DNA from: Rhizobium sullae
GTDB lineage: Bacteria > Pseudomonadota > Alphaproteobacteria > Rhizobiales > Rhizobiaceae
Reading direction: 5' to 3'
NCBI RefSeq assembly: GCF_025200715.1
Contig: NZ_CP104143.1
Coordinates: forward strand, 4,064,501 to 4,128,500
DNA length: 64,000 nucleotides
Below the pieces are notes generated by a model, which was not told the DNA's origin, made no database searches, and saw only the letters and a program-made list of their open reading frames with translations. A program made the translations under genes and the position numbers. Of the stretch, positions 4,528 through 64,000 are shown one piece after another. Positions within the stretch are counted from its first letter, which is position 1. The number at the start of each line of letters is the position of its first letter.

Positions 4528-5446
4528 CGTAACGCCTCAGGAGCTGGCGCTGCACGAGCGCGATGACGAGAACGATCAGAAAGAGGATGACCGATACGGC
4601 GGACGCATATCCAAGCTTTTGTTCCTCGAAGCCGGCGCGCACCATGTAATGCACCACGGTTTCGGTACTGCTCTTCGGACCCCCTTGGGTCAGGATCGCG
4701 ACCTGGGTGTAGAGCTTGAAGGCCTGAATGGTGGTGATGACCAACACGAAGATGTGCGTCGGCCTGAGACCTGGCATGGTCACGTGCCAGAAGCGCTGGA
4801 GGACATTGGCGCCGTCGATCTTGGCTGCGTCGTAGAGTTCGTCGGGAATGCCCTGCAAACCAGCGAGGTAGACGATCATCTGGAAGCCATAGGCCTGCCA
4901 TGCCGAAAGCAGGACGATCGAGAACATCGCCCATTGCGGATCGCCGAGCCAATCGATCGGCTGGATATATCCGCCCGAGGCGAAGCCGAGGATCTGGTTA
5001 AGCGGTCCGGTGGGATACTGGAATAATGTGCCCCAGACGACGCAGACGACAACGATCGACGTGATCGCGGGCAGGAAGAAGAGGCCACGGAAGAAGTTTC
5101 GGAACGGTAGCTTCTGGTGCAGCAGCAATGCGGTGGCAAATGCCAGGCCGCATTGAGCGGGCAGGATCCAGAAGGTGAAGCGCGACACGTTCCAAAGCGA
5201 GATCCAGAAGAGATCGTCCTTGAAGATGCGCAGGAAATTGGTGAAGCCGACGAAGCGGACCGGTGTCGGGCGCGGTACCAAAGGTTGATTGGTCATTGCC
5301 GTCCAGAACGACAGAAGGAACGGCACGACCAGGAAGATCGTCAGCAACACGAGCGCGGGCGCCAGCATGCCGATCTCCTGGAACATTCGGACTCTGTCTC
5401 CGCGCCCCACGGGACGCGTCATGGGCGCTGGTTGCTGCAAGGTCAT
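4520..5446 (-). CDS. Sugar ABC transporter permease (MalF type)
   Basis: The 308-residue protein has a basic N-terminus, six predicted membrane spans and an EAA loop (YDAAKIDGANVLQRFWHVTM). The ATG at 5446 is preferred over an upstream in-frame ATG at 5524 because a strong AGGAGGAGGAG run lies immediately before it. A gap of about 100 bases separates it from the binding-protein gene, the usual place for processing that lowers permease expression relative to the binding protein. It pairs with the MalG-type permease that follows. Confidence 0.92.
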   Translation of the reverse strand: MTLQQPAPMTRPVGRGDRVRMFQEIGMLAPALVLLTIFLVVPFLLSFWTAMTNQPLVPRPTPVRFVGFTNFLRIFKDDLFWISLWNVSRFTFWILPAQCGLAFATALLLHQKLPFRNFFRGLFFLPAITSIVVVCVVWGTLFQYPTGPLNQILGFASGGYIQPIDWLGDPQWAMFSIVLLSAWQAYGFQMIVYLAGLQGIPDELYDAAKIDGANVLQRFWHVTMPGLRPTHIFVLVITTIQAFKLYTQVAILTQGGPKSSTETVVHYMVRAGFEEQKLGYASAVSVILFLIVLVIALVQRQLLRRYDV

Positions 5447-5547: not shown

Positions 5548-6837
5548 TTATTGTCCGTTGAAGGGCGGGTAGCCGTCGTTGTCTTCGATGTCCTCGTCTA
5601 TCTTCTCGGCCGCGGCGGTCAGCGCCGCCTTGACGTCGCCGCCATTGAAGATCTCATCTACCGCCTGCATGAAGGTGGAGGTGATCGTCGGATAAGCGGG
5701 ATGCGGCGGCCTGGCGATCGCCGTCTTTGAGGCCTGCTCGAAGGCAATGGCCATCTGGCCGCCAGTGGCGTACAGCGGAGATTCCGCGGCAAAGCTCTTC
5801 AATCCCGGATAGGCAGACGTATCGCGCGCATGTTCGCGAAACTGCCCGTCCTTGAGCATGAAGCTCACGAACTTGCCGGCGATATCAGGATGCTTGGAGG
5901 CCGTGGTGATGGCCCAGATCCAGGTGCCGTTCGGACTTGCGCCCTTCGGTCCGAATTTGGGCAGCGGCATGACGACGATGTCGTCCTTCATCGAGGCGGC
6001 GGCTTCCGCGTAGACCCAATGGCCGCCCAGCGCGAGAGCAGCCGGATGTCCTTCCGCGTAGAACTGGTTGGTACCGGAGGATTGCGGCACGACCCAGCCG
6101 TTCTTGACCCAAGTCTGCATCAACGTCAGCGCATCGACGCAAGGTTCGCTGTCGAGCGTTCCCACGGATTTCCAGGTCTTCCGGTCGATCAGGTCGCAGC
6201 CTGCCGATTGCAGGATCGGGCTATAGGCATAGGTGATCCATTCGGTCTTGATGCCGTAGCCGCGAAACGTGTCGATCGGCCATTTGACGCCTTCGAGCTT
6301 CGACAGCTTTTCGAGGTAGCCTTCGAACTCCTCTCGCGTCCAGGCGTCGTCGACGGACTTTGGAATCCGGGCGCCAATCGCTTCGAGATACTTTTTGTTG
6401 CCGTAAAGGACGACCGAGGAGTCCGTCAGGCCGAGCGCATAGAGGTCCTCGTCGACGGGGTAGGTGCCCTGGGCGATGTTGGAGTCTGTCATGTCGTCGA
6501 GGACACCCGGATCGATCAAAGGTTTGATTTTCTGCAGGTAGCCGGACCAGACGTAGTTTGCGAGAAACGGCGCGTCGAGCTCCATGATGTCAGGCATCTG
6601 CTCGGACATGACGGCGGCGCTGAACTTCTCGTTATAGGCGTCGTGCGGCGCGTAGATCAGTTCGATATCCACGTCCGGATTGGCATCTTCGAAGCGTTTG
6701 GCCACCGCGCCATAGGCCGAGACCGTATCGGGATCGCCCTGATGCATGACCTGGATGACGGTCTTTGATTCGGCCGGACTTATGGCGAATCCCAGCGCCG
6801 CGGATGCTACGAGCATAGAAAGTAAACGATTACCCAT
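5548..6837 (-). CDS. Sugar ABC transporter periplasmic binding protein
   Basis: A family-1 extracellular solute-binding protein of 429 residues. The first ~24 residues (MGNRLLSMLVASAALGFA...) form a Sec signal peptide; the mature part begins with a strand-helix typical of the family (VIQVMHQGDPDTVSAY, then FEDANPDVDIELI). The ATG at 6837 has GGAGGA nine bases upstream and is better than the GTG at 6846. It follows lacI by 41 bases and precedes the two permeases, so it captures the substrate later cut by the GH32 enzyme. Confidence 0.92.
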   Translation of the reverse strand: MGNRLLSMLVASAALGFAISPAESKTVIQVMHQGDPDTVSAYGAVAKRFEDANPDVDIELIYAPHDAYNEKFSAAVMSEQMPDIMELDAPFLANYVWSGYLQKIKPLIDPGVLDDMTDSNIAQGTYPVDEDLYALGLTDSSVVLYGNKKYLEAIGARIPKSVDDAWTREEFEGYLEKLSKLEGVKWPIDTFRGYGIKTEWITYAYSPILQSAGCDLIDRKTWKSVGTLDSEPCVDALTLMQTWVKNGWVVPQSSGTNQFYAEGHPAALALGGHWVYAEAAASMKDDIVVMPLPKFGPKGASPNGTWIWAITTASKHPDIAGKFVSFMLKDGQFREHARDTSAYPGLKSFAAESPLYATGGQMAIAFEQASKTAIARPPHPAYPTITSTFMQAVDEIFNGGDVKAALTAAAEKIDEDIEDNDGYPPFNGQ

Positions 6838-7973: not shown

Positions 7974-8192
7974 TTCTCGACCTTCCCCTATGACCCCGCC
8001 TGGATCGAGAATCACCGCGCCTTTGCCGTGCAGCCGACCTTCCCCTTGAAGCTGGGCCATTTCAGACATCCGGCAAACCCGGAAACATGCGCGACGCACT
8101 GGCGGGCGTCTTCGCCGACGCCGCGCCAGACAGCTGGGGCCGCAGGCTTCTCGAACGCGGCTATGGCAACGGCCTTTCCGAATTCGAGAAGT
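7974..8192 (+). pseudogene. HipA-like kinase remnant (frameshifted N-terminal fragment)
   Basis: Two frames give pieces of a HipA-family N-terminus. The first, FPYDPAWIENHRAFAVQP, runs to about 8080. After a one-base shift the second reads DALAGVFADAAPDSWGRRLL and RGYGNGLSEFE, matching the conserved LRDAAPDxWGRR stretch of HipA. No kinase domain follows and no HipB-like antitoxin is seen. It therefore looks like a dead fragment of a toxin gene between two sugar operons. The family assignment rests on short motifs only. Confidence 0.5.
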
Positions 8193-8339
8193 CAGCGGCC
8201 CCTTCTGCATCAGCTCGACGCCGGTCGTAGTTCGAGCTCCTTGGCGGTGATCGCCTCATCGGCAGGCTCATGTCGCCGAGGCTGAACTGGATGATGATGC
8301 CGCGCGGGCGAGACGCCTGAGACATCTCGCGTCCTTAGG

Positions 8340-9068
8340 CTATTCGACTTCAGACGGTAGCTTTCTGACACCCAGGCCGATCGGCCGAAGGCTGTTGCCC
8401 GGATGGCGCGGATCTGGACCCCAGATGGCTTGATACGTGTCATACGCCATCCCTCTCCGCTGCAGCATGGCAAACACCACCGCCACCATCAGATACCATG
8501 TGCCGATGAACAGGAGCATCCACCGCGGGGCGTTCGCCTGCCACAGACCTGTTGAAACGGCGGCCATGGAGACCAGCAGCACCAGATATCCCATTGACTT
8601 ATGAATGCGCTCAAAGACACGGCGGCGGCGTGTCATATCGTAGTGATCGCCGCTCCAGCTGCCGTCTGCGGTCGGTGCCGACGGGCCGCCCTTCGTTCCT
8701 CTGAGCCATCCCGTAAGATACTGCATGCCGCCGAGTGCCAGGGCCACCCATCCTGTCAGCTGATGCGCCCAAGACGAGGCGGTAATCGATTTGGTTGCCG
8801 CGGGAGCGGAAAGTATCAGGAGCAAGCCAATCAGCATCAGCGCCAACGCGGCGTACTGGGCGCCACGATGAAGGTGCCACCATCGGCGATCGTCCAACAC
8901 ACGAGGCCAGTCCTGGCCAGGGAAGATCTTGAAGAATCGCGCTGCGATCACGCCGATGGGGACGAGTACCGACCAGGCCATCACCATTGATCGCGCGTGC
9001 CATGACAGGTGCATTCCGACTTCATGAACTCTTGTCGGATCGCACGGCGCGAGCAGCCACTCGAACAT
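8340..9068 (-). CDS. Cytochrome b561-like membrane protein
   Basis: A 242-residue protein with about five to six membrane segments. Four histidines, at residues 24 (HARSMVMAW), 67 (HLHRG), 102 (HQLTGW) and 156 (HKSMGY), are spaced like the two bis-His haem b sites of the eukaryote-type cytochrome b561/DOMON-associated family. The ATG at 9068 lies two bases after the stop of the permease gene and GGGTGA precedes it, so it is translated with the ABC operon. A role in transmembrane electron transfer is inferred; why it is joined to a sugar transporter is unclear. Confidence 0.7.
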   Translation of the reverse strand: MFEWLLAPCDPTRVHEVGMHLSWHARSMVMAWSVLVPIGVIAARFFKIFPGQDWPRVLDDRRWWHLHRGAQYAALALMLIGLLLILSAPAATKSITASSWAHQLTGWVALALGGMQYLTGWLRGTKGGPSAPTADGSWSGDHYDMTRRRRVFERIHKSMGYLVLLVSMAAVSTGLWQANAPRWMLLFIGTWYLMVAVVFAMLQRRGMAYDTYQAIWGPDPRHPGNSLRPIGLGVRKLPSEVE

Positions 9069-9070
9069 TG

Positions 9071-9940
9071 TCACCCTTTCACAGCGCCGGCGGTCATGCC
9101 TGTAATGATTTGTCTTGAAGCGACGAAGGTGAAGATGATCGGAGGGATCGCTAGCAACATGCCGGTAGCCATGACGACGCCCCAATCGATATCGTATTCG
9201 GTAAGCGAGTTGACGATCGTCACCGGCACGGTTCGGGTGTGCCTATTGGTCAACGCGTTGCCAAGGAGGAATTCATTCCAGGCGATGCGGAAAGTGAATA
9301 TCGCCGCTGCTGCAAGTCCTGGCCGGATGACCGGCAACACCACCAGGAAAAACACCTGCAATGGGCCAGCGCCGTCCATCCGGGCCGCTTCTTCGAGCTG
9401 GATCGGAACCTGCACGATGAAACTCTGCAGGATCCATATCACGAAGGGAAGATTCATCGCGACGTAGACCAGAACAAGTCCGGTGAGGGTTCCATCGAGC
9501 CCGAATTGGTAGGTCCATATTCCAAACACCGGAACGAGCAGTACCGCTGGCGGCACCATGCGCATGATCAACGTCGTCAAAGAAACGACGTTGCGGCCCA
9601 TGAACCGAAAGCGGACGAGCGCGTACGCTGCCATGCAACCGATAACGAGCGTCAGGGCGGTCGACGCCAAGCCGACGATCAGGGAATTTCCGAGCGAACG
9701 CGCGAAGGTCGGGTCACAACGACCTACATTCTGCGGCGAAAACCAGAGCACGTCGCACAACACCTTCTCGTAGTTGTGTAATGTCGGTAAGAAAAACAGG
9801 CTAGCGCCGTCGGACATGATATCGACGTTCAGCCGCAGTGAAGTAAGAAGCATCAGCGCGATCGGCCCGACAGCCATCATCACCAGGACTGCCAGAAGAG
9901 CATAAAAAGAGGGGTTCGTTTTCTGGTCACGCGCGATCAT
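9071..9940 (-). CDS. Sugar ABC transporter permease (MalG type), second operon
   Basis: The 289-residue permease has six predicted spans, a large periplasmic loop after the first span, and the EAA loop EEAARMDGAGPLQVFFLVVL. It ends TAGAVKG, the common terminus of MalG-like subunits. It starts three bases after the MalF-type gene and is followed two bases later by the b561-like gene. Together with 9944-10864, 10924-12249 and 12272-13357 it makes a complete CUT1 importer of unknown sugar specificity. Confidence 0.92.
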   Translation of the reverse strand: MIARDQKTNPSFYALLAVLVMMAVGPIALMLLTSLRLNVDIMSDGASLFFLPTLHNYEKVLCDVLWFSPQNVGRCDPTFARSLGNSLIVGLASTALTLVIGCMAAYALVRFRFMGRNVVSLTTLIMRMVPPAVLLVPVFGIWTYQFGLDGTLTGLVLVYVAMNLPFVIWILQSFIVQVPIQLEEAARMDGAGPLQVFFLVVLPVIRPGLAAAAIFTFRIAWNEFLLGNALTNRHTRTVPVTIVNSLTEYDIDWGVVMATGMLLAIPPIIFTFVASRQIITGMTAGAVKG

Positions 9941-9943
9941 CTA

Positions 9944-10864
9944 TTATTCGCCTTTCAGGGCTGCGGTCCGCAGTCGCGCCGCACGGCCTTCAATCATCTT
10001 GTTGTAAGTGAACATCCCAAGCGTCAGCCCGAGGAGGAGGACAAGCAACAGGTTCGACATTGCAGCCGCCAGCCCAAGCTCGCGAAACTCTGACGCTGTA
10101 CGAGAAATGCGCAGCGAAAGGATTTCGGTGGACAGACCTGGCCCTCCGTTCGTCAGGACCAGGATCACTTCGAGAACCTTGAACGCATCGATCAGCCGAA
10201 GCAAAGTCGCAACAACCAAGACAGGAAGCATCAGCGGCAGCTTGATATAAAGCACTTGCTGCCAGCCGGTCGCACCATCGATCCTGGCAGCTTCCAATGT
10301 GGAGCGGGGCAGTGATTGAAGGGCAGCGAGCGATAGAATGAAGATGAACGGAGTCCACTGCCATATGTCTGCAATGATGACAGAGGTAAGAGCCCATCGG
10401 CTCTCGGACAGCCAAGGGGCCGGCTCGAAGCCGAGAGACACCAACGCTCGGTTGAAGACGCCGACTGTCGGATGGTACATGTACCGCCACATCAATCCAA
10501 CAACGATTGGCGCGATCATCATCGGCAGGATGAACAAGGTTTTCAATACCGACAATCCGCGGATATTGCGATCCAGCAGAAGAGCGAGGCCTACGCCCAG
10601 CACCATCTCGGCAGCCACGACTACCCCGGCGAAAGTGATGGTAACTGCGACGCTCTCGTGAAACTGGGCGTCGCTGAGAAGCTTCACATAGTTGCCGAGC
10701 CCTACCCAGTCCGCCTCACTGATCCGTTGACTGGGATTCCAGTTCAAGAAGCTGGCATAGATCATGTAGCCGATCGGGTAGAGTAACGCAGCGCCAAGAA
10801 TGAGCGTAGCTGGCGCGAGAAATAAGTAAGGGGTCAGCCGATTCACGTTGGCAGCCTGCATCAT
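9944..10864 (-). CDS. Sugar ABC transporter permease (MalF type), second operon
   Basis: A 306-residue inner-membrane permease. The N-terminus (LTPYLFLAPATLILGAALLY) is the first span, and the EAA loop is LEAARIDGATGWQQVLYIKL. There are two adjacent ATG codons at 10864 and 10861; TGGAGGAC lies upstream of them. It follows the binding-protein gene after 59 bases and is the partner of the 9071-9940 permease. Confidence 0.92.
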   Translation of the reverse strand: MMQAANVNRLTPYLFLAPATLILGAALLYPIGYMIYASFLNWNPSQRISEADWVGLGNYVKLLSDAQFHESVAVTITFAGVVVAAEMVLGVGLALLLDRNIRGLSVLKTLFILPMMIAPIVVGLMWRYMYHPTVGVFNRALVSLGFEPAPWLSESRWALTSVIIADIWQWTPFIFILSLAALQSLPRSTLEAARIDGATGWQQVLYIKLPLMLPVLVVATLLRLIDAFKVLEVILVLTNGGPGLSTEILSLRISRTASEFRELGLAAAMSNLLLVLLLGLTLGMFTYNKMIEGRAARLRTAALKGE

Positions 10865-10923
10865 GTCCTCCAGGTAGATTCTAAGCGGGCCGGCACCCGG
10901 CCCGCGCAGCGCGAAATCAGCGA

Positions 10924-12249
10924 TTACTGCCAGCTGTAATAGCCGGCCTCCTGCATGGAAGACCGGGCGCGTTCTGCAACGCCGTCGAGAGCGGTCTTTG
11001 CGTCAAGTCCCTCCGTGAGCACCTTGCTCAGTGCCGTTCCGAGATCACCATTGATCTTTCCCCAGGTTGGGATGATGGGGCGCCAGTCGGGATCGGCGTA
11101 GGTGAGCGCCTTGCCGAATGTTGCCATGTAGGGAAACGTGGCGTTGACTTCCGGGTCATCGTGAGTCGATCGGCGAATCGGGTTTCCGCCCTCCAGCGCA
11201 ATCAGCTTGTCGGCATATTTGGAGGTGAGCCACTGCAGGAGCAGGAACGCCGCTTCCTTGTGAGCGGCATTCTTTGGAATAGCCAGACCGAAGCCGCCCG
11301 TCTGGGAACCTCGTCGCACACCCTTCGGATGCAGCGCCCAACCCACTTTGCCGACGACTTGGCTTTTCGTCGGATCGTTGACCTGTCCCGCGAAAACAGT
11401 GCTATCCAGATACATCGCAGTTTTGCCCTGAAGAAAAGCCGCACCCGCCTCAGCGAAGCCGAAGGTCTTGGCCCCCGCTGGTCCGCAGTCGACGATTTTC
11501 TTCAAAGCATCGGCTGCAGCTATGCCCTTCTCGTTGTTGACGACCGGGTTCCAGTTTTCATCGAAGATGCGGCCTCCGAGCGGCGCCAGATGCAACAGGA
11601 AGGCATGACTCGCATGCTGCCCGGATGCCGCACGGCTGGCGAGTCCGCCCATGCCTGGCTCAAGCTGGGGAATTCGGCAAGCCAGCTCGAGGAGCTCCTC
11701 GTAAGTCTCTGGCACCTTCAGGCCATGCTTCTCGAAAATATCCTTGCGATAGCCAAGAATAGAGGTCTCCGCGCCAAACGGGAGCCCGAACAGCGAACCC
11801 GTCGGCCCTGGCAAATATCCCTTGGTGCCACCTGCGATACCGATGTTCTGTATATAGCCGTCTATGATGTCGGCGGCATCATAGGTCGGATCGGCAAACC
11901 TCGGGTTCATGAAATATTTTGCGAGGTTCTCAAGCTGATCGGCATACACATAGTCGGCCTTCGAGAACACGACATAGGAAATCAGGTCGTAATCACCCTC
12001 GGCTTTGGTGAGCTCAAGCGTCTGCTTCTCGCGCATCTTGAGATACTCGAGTTGATCGACCTCGACCTCGATCCCGGTCTCGGCCGTGAACTGCGGCAGG
12101 ATCTTCACCACGGCGTCGTAGTGTGGGTGGGCAGGGAAATTCACCACGAGCGGGGTGCCTTTGTATGCCTCATATGGGTTCGCACTGGCCGCTATGGTTT
12201 GTAGCAAGAAACCGGCGAATGCCCCTGCTAGAATGGGTAGTCTGCGCAT
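10924..12249 (-). CDS. Sugar ABC transporter periplasmic binding protein, second operon
   Basis: A 441-residue family-1 solute-binding protein. Residues 1-23 are a Sec signal peptide ending ASA before NPYEAYKGTP. The mature part shows the usual start with a ligand-domain strand (LVVNFPAHPHYDAVVKIL) and a later glycine-rich FGLPFGAETSILGYRKDIF segment. It sits 22 bases after the ATPase gene. The ligand is not evident; the operon carries no catabolic enzyme that would identify it. Confidence 0.9.
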   Translation of the reverse strand: MRRLPILAGAFAGFLLQTIAASANPYEAYKGTPLVVNFPAHPHYDAVVKILPQFTAETGIEVEVDQLEYLKMREKQTLELTKAEGDYDLISYVVFSKADYVYADQLENLAKYFMNPRFADPTYDAADIIDGYIQNIGIAGGTKGYLPGPTGSLFGLPFGAETSILGYRKDIFEKHGLKVPETYEELLELACRIPQLEPGMGGLASRAASGQHASHAFLLHLAPLGGRIFDENWNPVVNNEKGIAAADALKKIVDCGPAGAKTFGFAEAGAAFLQGKTAMYLDSTVFAGQVNDPTKSQVVGKVGWALHPKGVRRGSQTGGFGLAIPKNAAHKEAAFLLLQWLTSKYADKLIALEGGNPIRRSTHDDPEVNATFPYMATFGKALTYADPDWRPIIPTWGKINGDLGTALSKVLTEGLDAKTALDGVAERARSSMQEAGYYSWQ

Positions 12250-12271
12250 GTTCGTCCTCCCTTTGCAGTCA

Positions 12272-13357
12272 TCAAAGTCTCAATGTGGTCGTGCGGTCGA
12301 AGATCAAGATGTCGTCGGTCACGACTGCGAACGCCGCCAAGGTCCCTGGTCGTGGGGACACGGCAGACGGCAATTCGACAAGTACTTCCTCGCCGCTCGG
12401 CAACTTGGTAACGAGGGTCGTCTGCGCTCCGAGATATTCGGAAACGACCACCTGCAACTCGATGGGTGCGCCGGAGTCGGTGTCCAGGTTGATAGAAGAG
12501 GGCCGAATGCCGAGTGTGACGTCGCTTGCCTTGTGAGGGCGGACCCGATTTGCCGTCTCCTCGGACAAAGGCAGAAGGAACCCGGCTCCGCGAGCCCAAA
12601 GGCGGCCCTTTTCCTCGACGAGCATGCCATCGATGAAATTGATCGCCGGACTGCCGATAAAACCCGCCACGAACTTGTTGTTCGGCCGCTTGAAGAGCTC
12701 TTCGGGCGTTCCCTGTTGCTGAACGACTCCTTCGTTCATCACAACAATGCGATCGCCAAGCGTCATTGCTTCGACTTGGTCATGCGTGACATAGACCATG
12801 TTCTTTTCCAGCCGGTCGCGCATTTCGCCGAGCTCAGTTCGCATCTGGGCCCGTAATTTGGCGTCGAGGTTCGACAGAGGTTCGTCAAAGAGAAAAGTCG
12901 ACGCATCGCGCACCAAGGCTCTCCCCATCGCCACGCGCTGACGCTGCCCCCCAGAGAGTTCCGCCGGCTTGCGCTCGAGCAGGTGCGTGATGCTCAGCAT
13001 CTTAGCTACCCGTTGGACGCGGGCGTCGATCTCAGGCCTGGGTACGCGTGCCAGGCGCAGACCAAAAGACATGTTTCGCGCGACATTCATGTGCGGATAC
13101 AGCGCGTAGTCCTGGAACACCATCGCGATGTCGCGTTCCTTCGGCTCCAGCCGACCGATGGCGCGATCATCAAAATAGATCTCGCCGCCACTCAACTGTT
13201 CTAATCCGGCAAGAATCCTCAAGGTGGTCGACTTTCCACAACCAGAGGGCCCGACGAGAACGGTAAACTCGCCGTTCTCCAGGGTTAGGTCGATTGGCGG
13301 CAGAACTTCAAGCGACCCAAATCGCTTAGTGACATGTTCAAATACGATCTGCGGCAC
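12272..13357 (-). CDS. Sugar ABC transporter ATP-binding protein, second operon
   Basis: The 361-residue ATPase has Walker [10 protein letters not shown] at 36-44, [16 protein letters not shown], Walker [15 protein letters not shown] and the switch histidine in VTHDQVEAMT, then the C-terminal regulatory domain of CUT1 ATPases. Here it is the first gene of the operon, unlike the neighbouring sugar operon where the ATPase is last. Its start faces the LacI gene at 13468 across a 110-base region with two operators, so it should be repressed by that regulator. Confidence 0.93.
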   Translation of the reverse strand: MPQIVFEHVTKRFGSLEVLPPIDLTLENGEFTVLVGPSGCGKSTTLRILAGLEQLSGGEIYFDDRAIGRLEPKERDIAMVFQDYALYPHMNVARNMSFGLRLARVPRPEIDARVQRVAKMLSITHLLERKPAELSGGQRQRVAMGRALVRDASTFLFDEPLSNLDAKLRAQMRTELGEMRDRLEKNMVYVTHDQVEAMTLGDRIVVMNEGVVQQQGTPEELFKRPNNKFVAGFIGSPAINFIDGMLVEEKGRLWARGAGFLLPLSEETANRVRPHKASDVTLGIRPSSINLDTDSGAPIELQVVVSEYLGAQTTLVTKLPSGEEVLVELPSAVSPRPGTLAAFAVVTDDILIFDRTTTLRL

Positions 13358-59753: not shown

Positions 59754-60104
59754 GTGTCTGCCGATCGACTAAGCATGACGTTTTCGGCTCTCGCCGATCC
59801 AACCCGCCGCGCGATCCTCGCACGGCTGGCGCTCGGCGAGGCTTCGGTATCCGAACTCGCCGAACCATTCGATATGTCCCTCGTTGCCGTATCGAAGCAT
59901 CTGAAAGTGCTGGAAAATGCCGGCCTCGTATCAAAAGGACGGCAAGCACAGTGGCGACCCTGCAGACTGGAGGCAGGGCCACTTCGCGGTGTTGATGACT
60001 GGCTCGACACCTACCGCCGGTTCTGGAGCGAAAGCCTCGATAGATTGGAAGCCTACGCAGCCACCCTCAAGTCAAGGAAGAACGAGGATGAAGGCAAGAA
60101 ATGA
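59754..60104 (+). CDS. ArsR-family winged-helix regulator
   Basis: A 116-residue protein with a GTG start. FSALADPTRRAILARLALGE and SVSELAEPFDMSLVAVSKHL are the ArsR winged helix, followed by the wing and LRGVDDWLDTYRRFWSESLD, the ending common in regulators paired with AHSA1 genes. No metal-site cysteines are present. It overlaps the next gene by 17 bases and probably represses the ArsR-AHSA1-GFA operon. Confidence 0.9.
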   Translation: MSADRLSMTFSALADPTRRAILARLALGEASVSELAEPFDMSLVAVSKHLKVLENAGLVSKGRQAQWRPCRLEAGPLRGVDDWLDTYRRFWSESLDRLEAYAATLKSRKNEDEGKK

Positions 60105-60576
60105 AATCCGCGTCGCCGGCGGTCGCAGCCGTGAGATCGTGCTCACCCGCGAGATCGATGCGCCGCGCGAGCTTGTCTTCAGCCTGTGGACCGAGCCGGA
60201 GCACCTGATGAAATGGTGGGGTCCGCACCATTGCTCGGCGTCCTCGGTTTCGGTCGATCTGCGCGAAGGCGGCGCCTGGCGTCATTGCATTCTCGGGCTG
60301 GACGGCAAGGAATACTGGAGCCGGGGCCGGTACGTTGAGATCAGTCCGCCGGAACGCCTCGTCTTCACCTTTGCCTGGGAAAATGACGCCGGAAAGCCGG
60401 AGCACGAGATGTGCGTAACGGTCGAGTTGGAAGAACGGGGCGAGGGTACGCGCCTCACCTTCCGTAAGCGCGAGCTGCCGAGCGATACCGAATTCAAATT
60501 ACAGTCGGAAGGTTGGCGCGAGGCGCTCGATAAGGCCGCTGCCTACGCGGAAGCCGCAGTCAAAAGGAGAAAGTAA
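60088..60576 (+). CDS. SRPBCC/AHSA1-domain protein
   Basis: A 162-residue START-like protein: LTREIDAPRELVFSLWTEPE, HLMKWWGPHHCS, GGAWRHCILG and RYVEISPPERLVFTFAW are hallmarks of AHSA1/activator-of-Hsp90-like proteins. They bind hydrophobic ligands; the ligand here is unknown. The start at 60088 lies within the ArsR gene, which implies coupled translation. Confidence 0.9.
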   Translation: MKARNEIRVAGGRSREIVLTREIDAPRELVFSLWTEPEHLMKWWGPHHCSASSVSVDLREGGAWRHCILGLDGKEYWSRGRYVEISPPERLVFTFAWENDAGKPEHEMCVTVELEERGEGTRLTFRKRELPSDTEFKLQSEGWREALDKAAAYAEAAVKRRK

Positions 60577-60977
60577 TGAAGAAGACCTATCACGGCAGCT
60601 GCCATTGCGGCGCAATCCGCTACGAAACCAGGCTCGATCTGTCGGCCGGCACGTTCCGCTGCAATTGCTCGATCTGCATGAAGAAGCGCAACTGGCTGGC
60701 GGTGGCCCAGCCGGAGGATTTTCGCCTTCTATCAGGGGAAGAAAAGCTCGGAGAATATCAGTTTGCCTCCCGCAAACTGCATCATCTGTTCTGCAAGGAT
60801 TGCGGCATCAGCTCCTACAGTTGGGGCGAAAACGAACATCTCGGCACCTTCTACGCGATCACCGTAAGTTGTCTGGACGATGCGACTGCTGAAGAGCTCA
60901 TCGCCGCACCCATTGCCTTCGTCGACGGCCTGCGCGACCGCTATGACGGTCCCCCGGAGGAGACGCGGCATCTTTGA
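60576..60977 (+). CDS. GFA/CENP-V-family zinc protein
   Basis: A 133-residue protein with zinc-binding cysteines in GSCHCGAIRYET, CNCSICMKKRNW and LFCKDCGISSYS. It overlaps the stop of the AHSA1 gene by one base (TAATG) and completes the ArsR-AHSA1-GFA operon. It is different from the GFA protein at 47609. Reaction unknown. Confidence 0.88.
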   Translation: MKKTYHGSCHCGAIRYETRLDLSAGTFRCNCSICMKKRNWLAVAQPEDFRLLSGEEKLGEYQFASRKLHHLFCKDCGISSYSWGENEHLGTFYAITVSCLDDATAEELIAAPIAFVDGLRDRYDGPPEETRHL

Positions 60978-60992
60978 TGGAGCGCCGATATT

Positions 60993-62654
60993 TCAATCAA
61001 GCTGGATATACGACACATCCTTCTTTTGCACTTCGTCCAGCGCTTCATCGTATCCGGCGTCTGCATAGCGCATGACGCCGAGCGCCGTATCATTGGTGAG
61101 CGCATGGTCGAGGCGTTCGTCGGCAGCCGCCGTGCCGTCGGCGACGACAGTCACGCCGCAACTGGTCATGTAGCCGGCATAGCCGCCGCCGCCGGAATGG
61201 ACGACGACGAGGTCGGCCATCGAGGAGCAGAGCATCATGGCATCGAGCAGCGGCCAGTCGGCGATCGCGTCGGAGCCGTCCTTCATGCGCTCGGTCATGA
61301 TGTTCGGATGCGCCATAGCGCCGGCATCAAGATGATCGCGCGAGAAGGCGACAGGGCCTTTCAGATCTCCACTGGCGACCAATTCGTTGACGCGGCGGGC
61401 AAGCGCGGTGCGCTCGCCGTGGCCGAGCCAGGCGATCCGCGCCGGCAGGCCCTCGAAGGGCACATGCTCGCGGGCAAGCCGGATCCAGTTGGTGATAATC
61501 TTGTTGTCCGGGAACATTTCGAGCAGCAGATCGTCGATCCGGGCGATGTCGCTTTCTTCGCCGGAAAGCGCCATCCAACGGAATGGGCCAATCGCCCGGG
61601 CAAACAGCGGCCGCAGATAGGCTTCGGTGAAGATCGGAATGTCGAAGGCGTTGGCAACGCCGCCTTCCTTCGCCTGTGTGCGGATCAAGTTGCCGTTGTC
61701 GAAGACTTCGGAACCTTTCTTCTGGAACTCCAGCATCGCCGTTACATGCTGAACGATCGAGGCGCGGCTTGCGGCCATTAACTGGCCCTGGCCGTCATCG
61801 CGAAGTTCCTTGACCTGGGCAAGGCTCATGCCCTTCGGCACGTAGCCATAGACGAGATCATGCGCCGAGGTCTGGTCCGTCACGATATCCGGCACGATGC
61901 CGCGCCGGGCGATCTCCGGGTAGATCTCGGCCGCATTGCCGACGAGGCCGACGGATAGCGCGCGCTTTTCCTTCACGGCCGTATCGATCATCTGCAGTGC
62001 GGTATCGAGATCAGGTGTGATCTCCTGCAGGTAACCGATCTGCTGGCGCTTCTTCGCCCGCTCGGGATCGATATCGACGCACAGGATCGCGGCCCCTGCC
62101 ATGCGGCCGGCGAGCGGTTGAGCCCCGCCCATACCGCCAAGGCCGGCGGTGAGCACGAAGCGGCCGGAGAGATCGCCGCCGAAGCGTCGCTCGGCGATAC
62201 GCATGAAGATTTCGTAGGTGCCCTGGATAACACCCTGGCTGCCGATATATTGCCAGGCGCCCGCCGTCAGCCCACCCCAGCAGATCAATCCCTTGCGCTG
62301 CAGTTCGTAAAACACTTCGACCTTCGCCCATTGGCCGACGATATTGCAGTTCGCCATGATGACGAGCGGTGCCTTGGCATGGGTTTTCACGAGGCCGATC
62401 GGCTTGCCGGACTGGATCAGCAGGGTCTGATCCTCCTCCATCTCCGTCAGCGCCTTGACGATGCCCTTATGCGCCGCCCAGTTGCGCGCGGCCTTGCCAA
62501 GTGCCGCATAGACGACGAGATTGTCCGGGTCCTCGCCGACGGCAAGCACGTTTTCGAGGAGACGCAGCAACGCTTCCTGCCGCCAACCCTTGGCCCGCAG
62601 TTCCAGCCCGCCGGGAATCGGAAATTTTGGATGACGTGGATTAGGCTTCGGCAT
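60993..62654 (-). CDS. Urocanase-family hydratase, possibly S-methyl-thiourocanate hydratase
   Basis: A 553-residue urocanase-fold protein. The NAD-binding GLGGMGGAQP is at 171-180 and TAGAWQYIGSQGVIQGTYE at 130-148. From memory, classical HutU has YGGIGKAARN, MMYGQMTAG and GGGVGxGYSQHAG; here these are YAALGKAARN (49-58), ICWGGLTAG and GGGGYAGYMTSCG (488-500). Ordinary urocanase activity is therefore not certain. ATG at 62654 follows AAGGAC. It lies after a TfoX-N gene and a DUF917 gene, and DUF917 enzymes include an S-methyl-thiohydantoin desulfurase. No hutH, hutI or hutG is in view. Confidence 0.75.
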   Translation of the reverse strand: MPKPNPRHPKFPIPGGLELRAKGWRQEALLRLLENVLAVGEDPDNLVVYAALGKAARNWAAHKGIVKALTEMEEDQTLLIQSGKPIGLVKTHAKAPLVIMANCNIVGQWAKVEVFYELQRKGLICWGGLTAGAWQYIGSQGVIQGTYEIFMRIAERRFGGDLSGRFVLTAGLGGMGGAQPLAGRMAGAAILCVDIDPERAKKRQQIGYLQEITPDLDTALQMIDTAVKEKRALSVGLVGNAAEIYPEIARRGIVPDIVTDQTSAHDLVYGYVPKGMSLAQVKELRDDGQGQLMAASRASIVQHVTAMLEFQKKGSEVFDNGNLIRTQAKEGGVANAFDIPIFTEAYLRPLFARAIGPFRWMALSGEESDIARIDDLLLEMFPDNKIITNWIRLAREHVPFEGLPARIAWLGHGERTALARRVNELVASGDLKGPVAFSRDHLDAGAMAHPNIMTERMKDGSDAIADWPLLDAMMLCSSMADLVVVHSGGGGYAGYMTSCGVTVVADGTAAADERLDHALTNDTALGVMRYADAGYDEALDEVQKKDVSYIQLD

Positions 62655-62682
62655 GGAATGTCCTTCCTCAAGTCCTGTCTTG

Positions 62683-63012
62683 TTATTTCCCCGGCAGCAT
62701 CTCCACATAGGCGAGTGCCGCATCAAGCAGACGCTTTCGCAGTGCATCCTCGCCATACACATCGGCATTGACGCGCACCCAGCCTTGCATCAAGCGCCCG
62801 CCCGACAGCATCTGCACCGCTCCCGGTAGAGCCAGTGCCCAGCCGTCATTGCCTTTGCCGAGCCGAACCAGCATGCCATCCTCTCGCGCACCACAGAGAA
62901 GGTTGCCGTTCAACAGAAAGCCCCAGCCGCCGAACATGGCCTTTTCGCTGAGACCCGGATGGCCGCTGAGCTCTTCTCTCATCAGTTCCTCAAGACCGGC
63001 ATCCCGCGCCAT
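62683..63012 (-). CDS. TfoX N-terminal-domain protein
   Basis: A 109-residue protein with the TfoX_N pattern: KAMFGGWGFLLNGNLLCGAR and EDGMLVRLGKG. The C-terminal TfoX helical domain is missing, as in many stand-alone family members. It lies between the DUF917 gene (three-base gap) and the urocanase-like gene, so the three are probably one transcript. Its role there is unknown. Confidence 0.85.
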   Translation of the reverse strand: MARDAGLEELMREELSGHPGLSEKAMFGGWGFLLNGNLLCGAREDGMLVRLGKGNDGWALALPGAVQMLSGGRLMQGWVRVNADVYGEDALRKRLLDAALAYVEMLPGK

Positions 63013-63015
63013 AAG

Positions 63016-64000
63016 TCACGCCTTTGCCGCCAAGGCATAGCGCCCAATCTCAATACCCATCACTTCTTCCACGGGCGGGTAGACGGTTGGGTCGAGGACG
63101 CTTGCAGAAAGTGGAATGATATCCATGGGTACATGCAGGATGAAAACCTGCATGCCGCCCTTGAGCTGGCCGACGCTGAGCGGCTCACCTTCCGGCGAAA
63201 GCGTCGTGATGACCGAGGGAAACGTCGCCACGCGCTTACCATCGGCATCGTCGATGGCCATGTATTCGTTCATCACATGCACCGTCACGGCTTCGGCGCC
63301 GGAGCCGACGACGATCGTGCCGATGTCGAAGGCTTCTTTGGTGTAGACGACATCCTTCATCGTAATGATGCCTTCAGCGAGGATGCTGCCGCCGGTTGTT
63401 TTGCAAATCGCATCGATGACGGCCGATCCGCCATTCTTCTCCGCCGCAATGATCGCTTCGCCGAGCGCAAGCGCCATAGAGATGCCGCCGAGTGCCGCAT
63501 GCGTGCGCACATAGGATGCCTGCAGCGGATTGCGGCAGCTGGCGATGAAGCCGCCCGATTGGTCAGCGGCGGCTCGCAGGATCGGAGAGATCTTCGCGGT
63601 CGCACCCTTCACCACAAGCTCGATGTAGCGGTTCTCCGCGCGGTTTCCGCCAACGGCCGTCTGGATCATCTGCTCCGGCGAACCCGCCATGCCGATCGAG
63701 CCCATGTCGCCGGTCGGATGCGCCCGGATATCGCCAACCGCATCGACAACCTTCGTGCCGAGAATGGCCGAGGGCAGCCAGCCGTTCAGCGTCGAGGATT
63801 TGCCGTTCTGCCCGATGATGAGCCCGGAGAGCTTTTCGCCGAGTTCGTCCTGAAGAAGCTGGACGGCTTTCACGTAATCGATGCCCTGCATTTCCCAAGG
63901 CGTCGTGGAGGCTGGCGCGCCGATCGCCGCTGCCGTCGCGATCCAGTCGTCGTCTCTAAGTTCATCGATGGAAACGAGTTCCGGCTTGCCGATGCTGACC
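63016..64000 (-). CDS. DUF917-family protein (S-methyl-thiohydantoin desulfurase-like), 5' end outside window
   Basis: The frame is open to the right edge, so the N-terminus is missing; the ATG at 63891 is internal, because SIGKPELVSIDEL and DDDWIATAAAIGAPASTTPW continue the family's sequence before it. Later landmarks are GANGKSS-like IIGQNGKSSTLNGW, HPTGDMGSIGMAGSPEQ and GGSILAEGIITMKDVVYTKE. DUF917 (COG3535) enzymes are linked to hydantoin use, and at least one hydrolyses S-methyl-thiohydantoin. It is the upstream gene of the TfoX-N and urocanase-like genes. Confidence 0.8.
   Translation of the reverse strand, partial: VSIGKPELVSIDELRDDDWIATAAAIGAPASTTPWEMQGIDYVKAVQLLQDELGEKLSGLIIGQNGKSSTLNGWLPSAILGTKVVDAVGDIRAHPTGDMGSIGMAGSPEQMIQTAVGGNRAENRYIELVVKGATAKISPILRAAADQSGGFIASCRNPLQASYVRTHAALGGISMALALGEAIIAAEKNGGSAVIDAICKTTGGSILAEGIITMKDVVYTKEAFDIGTIVVGSGAEAVTVHVMNEYMAIDDADGKRVATFPSVITTLSPEGEPLSVGQLKGGMQVFILHVPMDIIPLSASVLDPTVYPPVEEVMGIEIGRYALAAKA

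Follow-up and report, generated by a model that had tools for sequence, protein, structure and literature searches.

A predicted ergothioneine utilization operon with a cysteine-type lyase and a TfoX_N-domain gene in Rhizobium sullae

Ergothioneine is a fungal antioxidant, and a pathway for its utilization (Ert) is already known. The chemistry of its later steps, from the hydration of thiourocanate onward, is reportedly described in the literature on Burkholderia sp. HME13, and the NCBIfam family names agree with that account. Other described relatives are a route for S-methyl ergothioneine with a homologous hydratase and desulfurase (NF058531 and NF058532), the ergothionase of Treponema denticola (PDB entry 6s7j), which has the histidine ammonia-lyase (HAL) fold without the 4-methylideneimidazole-5-one (MIO) triad, and the urocanase HutU (TIGR01228). 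Here we describe an operon at the right end of a 64,000-nucleotide stretch of the Rhizobium sullae genome (“the window”; positions 4064501–4128500 of contig C1, 7.6 Mb genome) that very probably serves ergothioneine utilization, with trimethylamine, sulfide, CO2, ammonia, and glutamate as the predicted products. The locus resembles the HME13 route in that its hydratase, desulfurase, ErtD, and ErtE all score above curated cut-offs of the NCBIfam models for the Ert pathway (NF058530, NF058529, NF058538, and NF058540). It differs from the known pathway in a first enzyme that carries cysteine where the cofactor would form (“Cys-type”), in a TfoX_N gene within the operon, and in the chromosomal position of the whole block between ubiB and a major facilitator superfamily (MFS) transporter gene.

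Operon layout and predicted pathway

The original prediction, made from the letters of the window, had named a urocanase-family gene, a DUF917 gene, and a TfoX_N gene between them, and open reading frames (ORFs) and profile searches place all three on the minus strand at the right end of the window. The neighborhood was extended past the window end as stretch L003 (L003 coordinate + 60499 = window coordinate), and the operon comprises:

60993..62654, minus strand: predicted thiourocanate hydratase, 553 amino acids, last gene of the operon (NF058530; start with ribosome site; clade with 7ned)
62683..63012, minus strand: TfoX_N-domain protein, 109 amino acids, operon member (PF04993)
63016..64000, minus strand: predicted thiohydantoin desulfurase (DUF917/S-Me-THD), C-terminal 327 of 365 amino acids in the window (NF058529, scored on the whole gene)
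L003 2517-3614, minus strand: whole desulfurase gene, starting at about window position 64113, 113 bases beyond the window end
L003 3595-4875, minus strand, outside the window: predicted ErtE, N-carbamyl-L-glutamate amidohydrolase, a Zn hydrolase (NCBIfam; start taken at 4875)
L003 4872-6254, minus strand, outside the window: predicted ErtD, hydantoin-5-propionate amidohydrolase, hydantoinase-type (NCBIfam)
L003 6301-7860, minus strand, outside the window: Cys-type HAL-family lyase (family match, no MIO motif)

The six genes are transcribed in the order lyase, ErtD, ErtE, desulfurase, TfoX_N, and hydratase, and the window ends inside the desulfurase. They are closely packed: the ErtE start overlaps the ErtD stop, ErtE runs 20 bases into the desulfurase gene, the TfoX_N gene starts 3 bases past the desulfurase stop, and the hydratase starts 28 bases past the TfoX_N gene. 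The likely hydratase start is the ATG at 62654, preceded by a GGAAGGA ribosome site, while the longest ORF would start at 62768. Upstream of the lyase, beyond the window, lie ubiB and then ubiE (named by eye).

In the proposed pathway, the MIO-less lyase would take trimethylamine off imported ergothioneine to yield 2-thiourocanate (step 1), which the hydratase, a member of an NAD-dependent family, would convert to 3-(5-oxo-2-thioxoimidazolidin-4-yl)propionate (step 2). The DUF917 enzyme would then swap sulfur for oxygen and release sulfide (step 3), ErtD would open hydantoin-5-propionate to N-carbamoyl-L-glutamate (step 4), and ErtE would produce CO2, ammonia, and L-glutamate (step 5), with the TfoX_N protein as an accessory or regulatory component. 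The assignments above curated cut-offs and the gene order point to steps 2–5, and step 1 is suggested by the loss of the MIO triad, the kept lysines, the operon position, and the co-occurrence of the lyase with the hydratase.

The hydratase scored 1065 bits with the thiourocanate hydratase model NF058530 (cut-off 930), and the DUF917 protein, whose S-Me-THD N and C domains were confirmed by profile search, scored 599 bits with the thiohydantoin desulfurase model NF058529 (cut-off 440). ErtD (778 bits, cut-off 600) and ErtE (631 bits, cut-off 520) also passed. The earlier expectation of a linked DUF917 desulfurase and of thiohistidine catabolism was right in kind. The same expectation was off by one methyl group, as it had specified the S-methyl branch: the hydratase reached 746 bits with NF058531 (S-methyl thiourocanate hydratase, cut-off 880) and the desulfurase 279 bits with NF058532 (S-methyl form, cut-off 450), both below the thresholds. 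Catabolism of S-methyl-ergothioneine through S-methyl-thiourocanate is therefore very improbable, despite the membership of both enzymes in the same superfamilies as the S-methyl forms. The DUF917 gene is best read from its profile matches as a thiohydantoin desulfurase of the non-methylated type.

Three hydratase motifs differ from HutU, namely YAALGKAARN for YGGIGxAARx, ICWGGLTAG for xMYGQMTAG, and HSGGGGYAGYMTSCG for HHGGGVGMGYSQHSG, the last at residues 488–500 in the 553-residue numbering, just as first noticed. Among the nearest 80 of the 315 relatives found (L005–L084), CWGGLTAG and GGGGYAGYM occur in all 80 and the exact YAALGKAARN in 72, so that the motifs are not due to chance. Slightly varied, all three are present in 7ned and in 18 hydratase sequences from such clusters (our own included), and they are absent from 10 of 10 HutU sequences from the loci (the strain’s own among them) and from 1x87. 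The hydratase sequence of L151, an Agrobacterium cluster of another kind, fits none of the motif patterns. Judged from this alignment, the three motifs are marks of the hydratase subfamily. In the tree, the hydratase groups with 7ned (99/93), which we take to be a thiourocanate hydratase (its PDB name is urocanate hydratase), and stands outside the HutU clade (100/100); its identity to the strain’s own HutU is 51%. Compared with R. sullae sequences, the hydratase is 99% and the lyase 100% identical. The urocanase relative is accordingly named here as a predicted thiourocanate hydratase, neither HutU nor the S-methyl enzyme, and the original prediction that it was not HutU is upheld by the phylogeny.

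An ordinary, diverged histidine-utilization (hut) cluster could be argued from the names “histidine ammonia-lyase” and “aromatic amino acid lyase” carried by database relatives of the lyase, and from the hydratase score above the broad HutU cut-off (TIGR01228, 703 bits vs 375), which itself weighs against the ergothioneine assignment. This explanation is hardly credible, since the lyase lacks the MIO triad, the hydratase lies outside the HutU clade, and a separate hut cluster is present on contig C2, where hutU (978 bits, TIGR01228) adjoins hutH (731 bits), both far above cut-off, and adjacent ORFs in the ORF list were recognized by eye as hutI- and hutF-like. Beyond the window, moreover, the operon is followed not by hutH, hutI, or hutG but by ErtE, ErtD, and the MIO-less lyase. 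The further hutU fits the original prediction, and neither of the two outcomes named in advance as refuting it was observed. Both the hut cluster and the S-methyl route were rejected on the cut-offs, the clade, and the second hut set.

The Cys-type lyase and its substrate

An ergothionase-like lyase had been anticipated beyond the window, and a MIO-less member of the HAL family is located there. It has the HAL fold but reads GSIGCA-DIG where HAL has GSVGASGDL; in 79 of the 79 lyases found in the 80 loci, C-A stands in place of the ASG triad, the same one-residue deletion that ergothionase shows. One of these loci is L032 of R. johnstonii 3841, a laboratory strain. Its best PDB sequence match is ergothionase 6s7j (157 bits, compared to 133 for HAL). 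Lys68 and Lys381, which correspond to Lys63 and Lys383 of T. denticola ergothionase in alignment numbering (Td 63 and Td 383), are shared with that enzyme; they occur in 7/7 and 6/7 sequences of the ergothionase clade, respectively, and are missing from 5/5 HutH sequences. On the other hand, the lyase is only ~23–25% identical to 6s7j over the fold, and the former MIO site is occupied by cysteine (Cys147 in this strain) instead of Glu142, with Phe326 replaced by Ser and Glu327 by Leu. Cysteine at the MIO position and leucine at Td 327 were found in 13/13 core Cys-type sequences, and a 14th (L158, 36% identical and linked to a cluster) has cysteine and histidine.

The root of the lyase tree was not inferred by the program. 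In the first two trees, rooted at the midpoint, the Cys-type stood apart from every other type. The last tree had more sequences, though L158 was dropped from it; viewed from HutH, the Cys-type and the ergothionase clade come out there as sisters (91/83). The Cys-type lyase apparently represents, by sequence, an uncharacterized branch beside the characterized ergothionase, and this branch looks new.

Several observations weigh against the assignment of the operon to ergothioneine. The Cys-type clade is separate from the characterized ergothionase (100/100) on a long branch, and the sister relationship is not firm; the long sequences L158_36 and L150_28 were left out of that tree. The structural comparison was a tie (VIA-align Z of 35.0 for ergothionase and 34.2 and 33.8 for HAL), and the top Foldseek ranks were HAL entries from P. 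putida. The Cys-type also lacks the acidic residues of the ergothionase clade at Td 142 (Glu in 5/7 sequences) and Td 327 (Glu or Asp in 7/7), so that the leaving group or the thiohistidine may be a different one. Neither residue is an established mark of the ergothionase family, Glu142 being kept in just those five of seven sequences. Further down the pathway, a broader Zn-hydrolase model scores above the ErtE model (812 bits, cut-off 486, vs 631). Finally, the operon carries no transporter gene, as judged from its ORFs and the profile search, so that the transporter sought beyond the window did not materialize there, and the reading rests on sequence for the enzymes of this strain.

For uptake, no EgtD match was obtained in this genome by a search that had no control genome above the cut-off, a missing control that is a further point against the assignment; without EgtD, the strain would need to take up its ergothioneine. 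EgtU is a characterized ergothioneine importer of the broad glycine-betaine-type ATP-binding cassette (ABC) class (PMC9732360). In genome G631, ErtD and the Cys-type lyase flank glycine-betaine-type ABC transporter genes, whose OsmF-type binding protein scores 472 bits (cut-off 400). In G432, this spot is taken by genes for an ABC permease and an ATPase of unspecified type. Together with the MIO loss, these neighbors favor a betaine substrate. An OsmF-type betaine transporter was considered as the importer dedicated to the pathway in Rhizobium but was rejected as not diagnostic: the homologue was found in 33/33 genomes with or without the operon, and this too counts against the assignment.

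The lower pathway could also operate as described while the lyase acts on another 2-thiohistidine, such as a differently N-alkylated form, ergothioneine sulfonate, or free 2-thiohistidine. The separate clade and the three substituted positions are consistent with this alternative, and PMC13405746 cites (as its reference 43) an ergothioneine-sulfonate route reported from Agrobacterium radiobacter. One strain of that name, K84, is Rhizobium rhizogenes, a species in which the loci L038, L039, and L046 have the Cys-type lyase. We nevertheless regard the alternative as unlikely. The loss of MIO is generally understood to disfavor ammonia elimination in this family, a thiohydantoin-type desulfurase suits unoxidized sulfur, and a betaine transporter adjoins the lyase in G631. 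The Td 383 lysine is present in the Cys-type and is kept by 6/6 other MIO-less sequences grouped with the AA-type, but is lacking in 5/5 HutH sequences. Ergothioneine remains the more probable of the predicted substrates for the Cys-type lyase.

The Td 63 lysine was found in all aligned desulfurase-linked lyases (14 Cys-type, L147, L155, L150, and L156); 5 HutH sequences and 6 that are AA-type or related do not have it. The idea that it marks a thione substrate is weakened by its presence in L190, L191, L192, and L193, which have no desulfurase match within 9 kb.

The TfoX_N gene and the distribution of the operon

The hydratase was found above the cut-off in 107/120 genomes of the genus sample and in 6/398 of the phylum sample, and the desulfurase in 5/385 of the class sample (our own genome is counted in all three). 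From these matches, the operon is a very common trait of the genus Rhizobium. Linkage was examined in all 13 hydratase-negative genomes of the genus sample and in 20 of the 107 positive ones, a nonrandom selection. The Cys-type lyase (82–90% identity) was present in 20/20 positive and 0/13 negative genomes, and the operon TfoX_N gene in 19/20 and 0/13, respectively. In four of five hydratase-negative genomes examined, the flanking MFS gene adjoins ubiB, an unoccupied site that lacks the entire block; in the fifth (L185), ubiB was matched but the other flank was not found within the stretch. The operon including TfoX_N also occurs in seven Ensifer/Sinorhizobium-like loci (L077, L078, and L080–L084) whose stretches give no match to ubiB; one of these, L084, has a LysR-type gene upstream. 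Based on the linkage counts, the empty sites, and the ubiB-less Ensifer loci, TfoX_N appears to travel with the operon.

The TfoX_N domain is familiar chiefly from competence regulation. The operon protein matches PF04993 with 39.4 bits (cut-off 30.1), and its gene is located between the desulfurase and the hydratase on the same strand in 74/80 Rhizobium/Ensifer loci. Compared with the window copy, the median ratio of nonsynonymous to synonymous substitution rates (dN/dS) is 0.16 (64 usable of 65 pairs), which marks a kept protein gene. The gene also occurs between the desulfurase and the hydratase on a Shinella plasmid (50% identity), and one further TfoX_N protein is encoded elsewhere in the R. 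sullae genome. No TfoX_N match was detected in the other 16 loci of the set (L145–L152 and L154–L161; Ochrobactrum, Neorhizobium, Paracoccus, Thalassospira, Burkholderia, and others), among which L148 has no hydratase match in its stretch and L150 and L151 are more distant clusters. The gene accordingly looks like an addition of the Rhizobiaceae that is dispensable for the pathway in general. On comparative grounds the TfoX_N gene is a real member of the operon, a point that looks new; as a guess, its product may be a pathway-specific regulator or an accessory protein.

We also put forward, as a possible if rather doubtful extension, that the MIO-less lyases of rhizobia, in which cysteine occupies the place of the cofactor, make up a distinct, uncharacterized class specialized for ergothioneine or for a closely related thiohistidine betaine from fungi or actinobacteria, and that TfoX_N is a dedicated partner gained and lost together with the pathway. 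In this case, root-associated Rhizobium would usually be equipped with the trait and would produce sulfide and trimethylamine at the root. Among the papers listed in a literature search, judged by titles and abstract starts, none dealt with ergothionase of rhizobia or with TfoX_N in an ergothioneine setting, and a text search of the collection available found no paper with “thiourocanate hydratase” and none joining ergothioneine, thiourocanate, and thiohydantoin. In a 2026 paper, BLAST searches with the Burkholderia enzyme limit ergothionase to a few genera, with a warning that divergent homologues may escape (PMC13405746). The Cys-type lyase, if its assignment is true, would be such a homologue. 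The misannotation of its relatives would then be corrected, and ergothioneine breakdown would prove very common in the genus. From the lyase set, a residue code relating to MIO loss and substrate choice can be put to the test, and the TfoX_N gene gives a metabolic context to its domain.

Related lyases and neighboring genes

Beside the operon, a convergent plus-strand group (59754–60977) encodes an ArsR-like regulator and an AHSA1-like protein (both named by eye) and a GFA-domain protein (PF04828), and some, but not all, Rhizobium loci have a GFA match close to the hydratase.

Other lyases of the family were also observed. In L156 (G472:C3), a lyase at about 8075–9700 adjoins a desulfurase (9830–10915) and a hydratase (10948–12591); it has kept the MIO triad (GASGDLA) along with the Td 63 lysine shared with ergothionase and is a candidate 2-thiohistidine ammonia-lyase. 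Another MIO-less type (GSIGAA-DLAP) occurs in L166, L167 (15704–17161), L169, L171, and L194 (annotated as hutH in L194) and adjoins genes for glycine-betaine-type binding proteins in L166, L167, L169, and L194; L194 also has hutC, a putative sulfate exporter, and an ornithine cyclodeaminase. The HAL-family lyases at 6340–7695 in L167 and 7771–9222 in L170 have the MIO stretch shrunk to GSVGY--L and are ~39% identical to HutH. In L190 (Sinorhizobium meliloti 1021 pSymA, NC_003037.1, 170050–171603), a lyase 56% identical to an ergothionase-type enzyme of Burkholderia arboris has Gln at the MIO position; neither a desulfurase nor a hydratase was matched within 9 kb of it.

The Agrobacterium cluster L151 (A. 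tumefaciens pAt, NZ_CP011248.1, about 402214–421158) encodes a distant DUF917 protein (37%), a urocanase, and ErtE- and ErtD-like proteins, along with a molybdopterin S/N-oxide reductase, a glutathione S-transferase, and betaine-type ABC genes, and may serve an oxidized thiohistidine. The loci L145 (Paracoccus aminophilus), L146 (Thalassospira), and L154 (Neorhizobium) have the genes from thiourocanate to glutamate and no lyase match within the stretch; L145 and L146 carry tripartite ATP-independent periplasmic (TRAP) transporter genes and L154 amino-acid ABC transporter genes, and these bacteria are possibly users of thiourocanate made by others.

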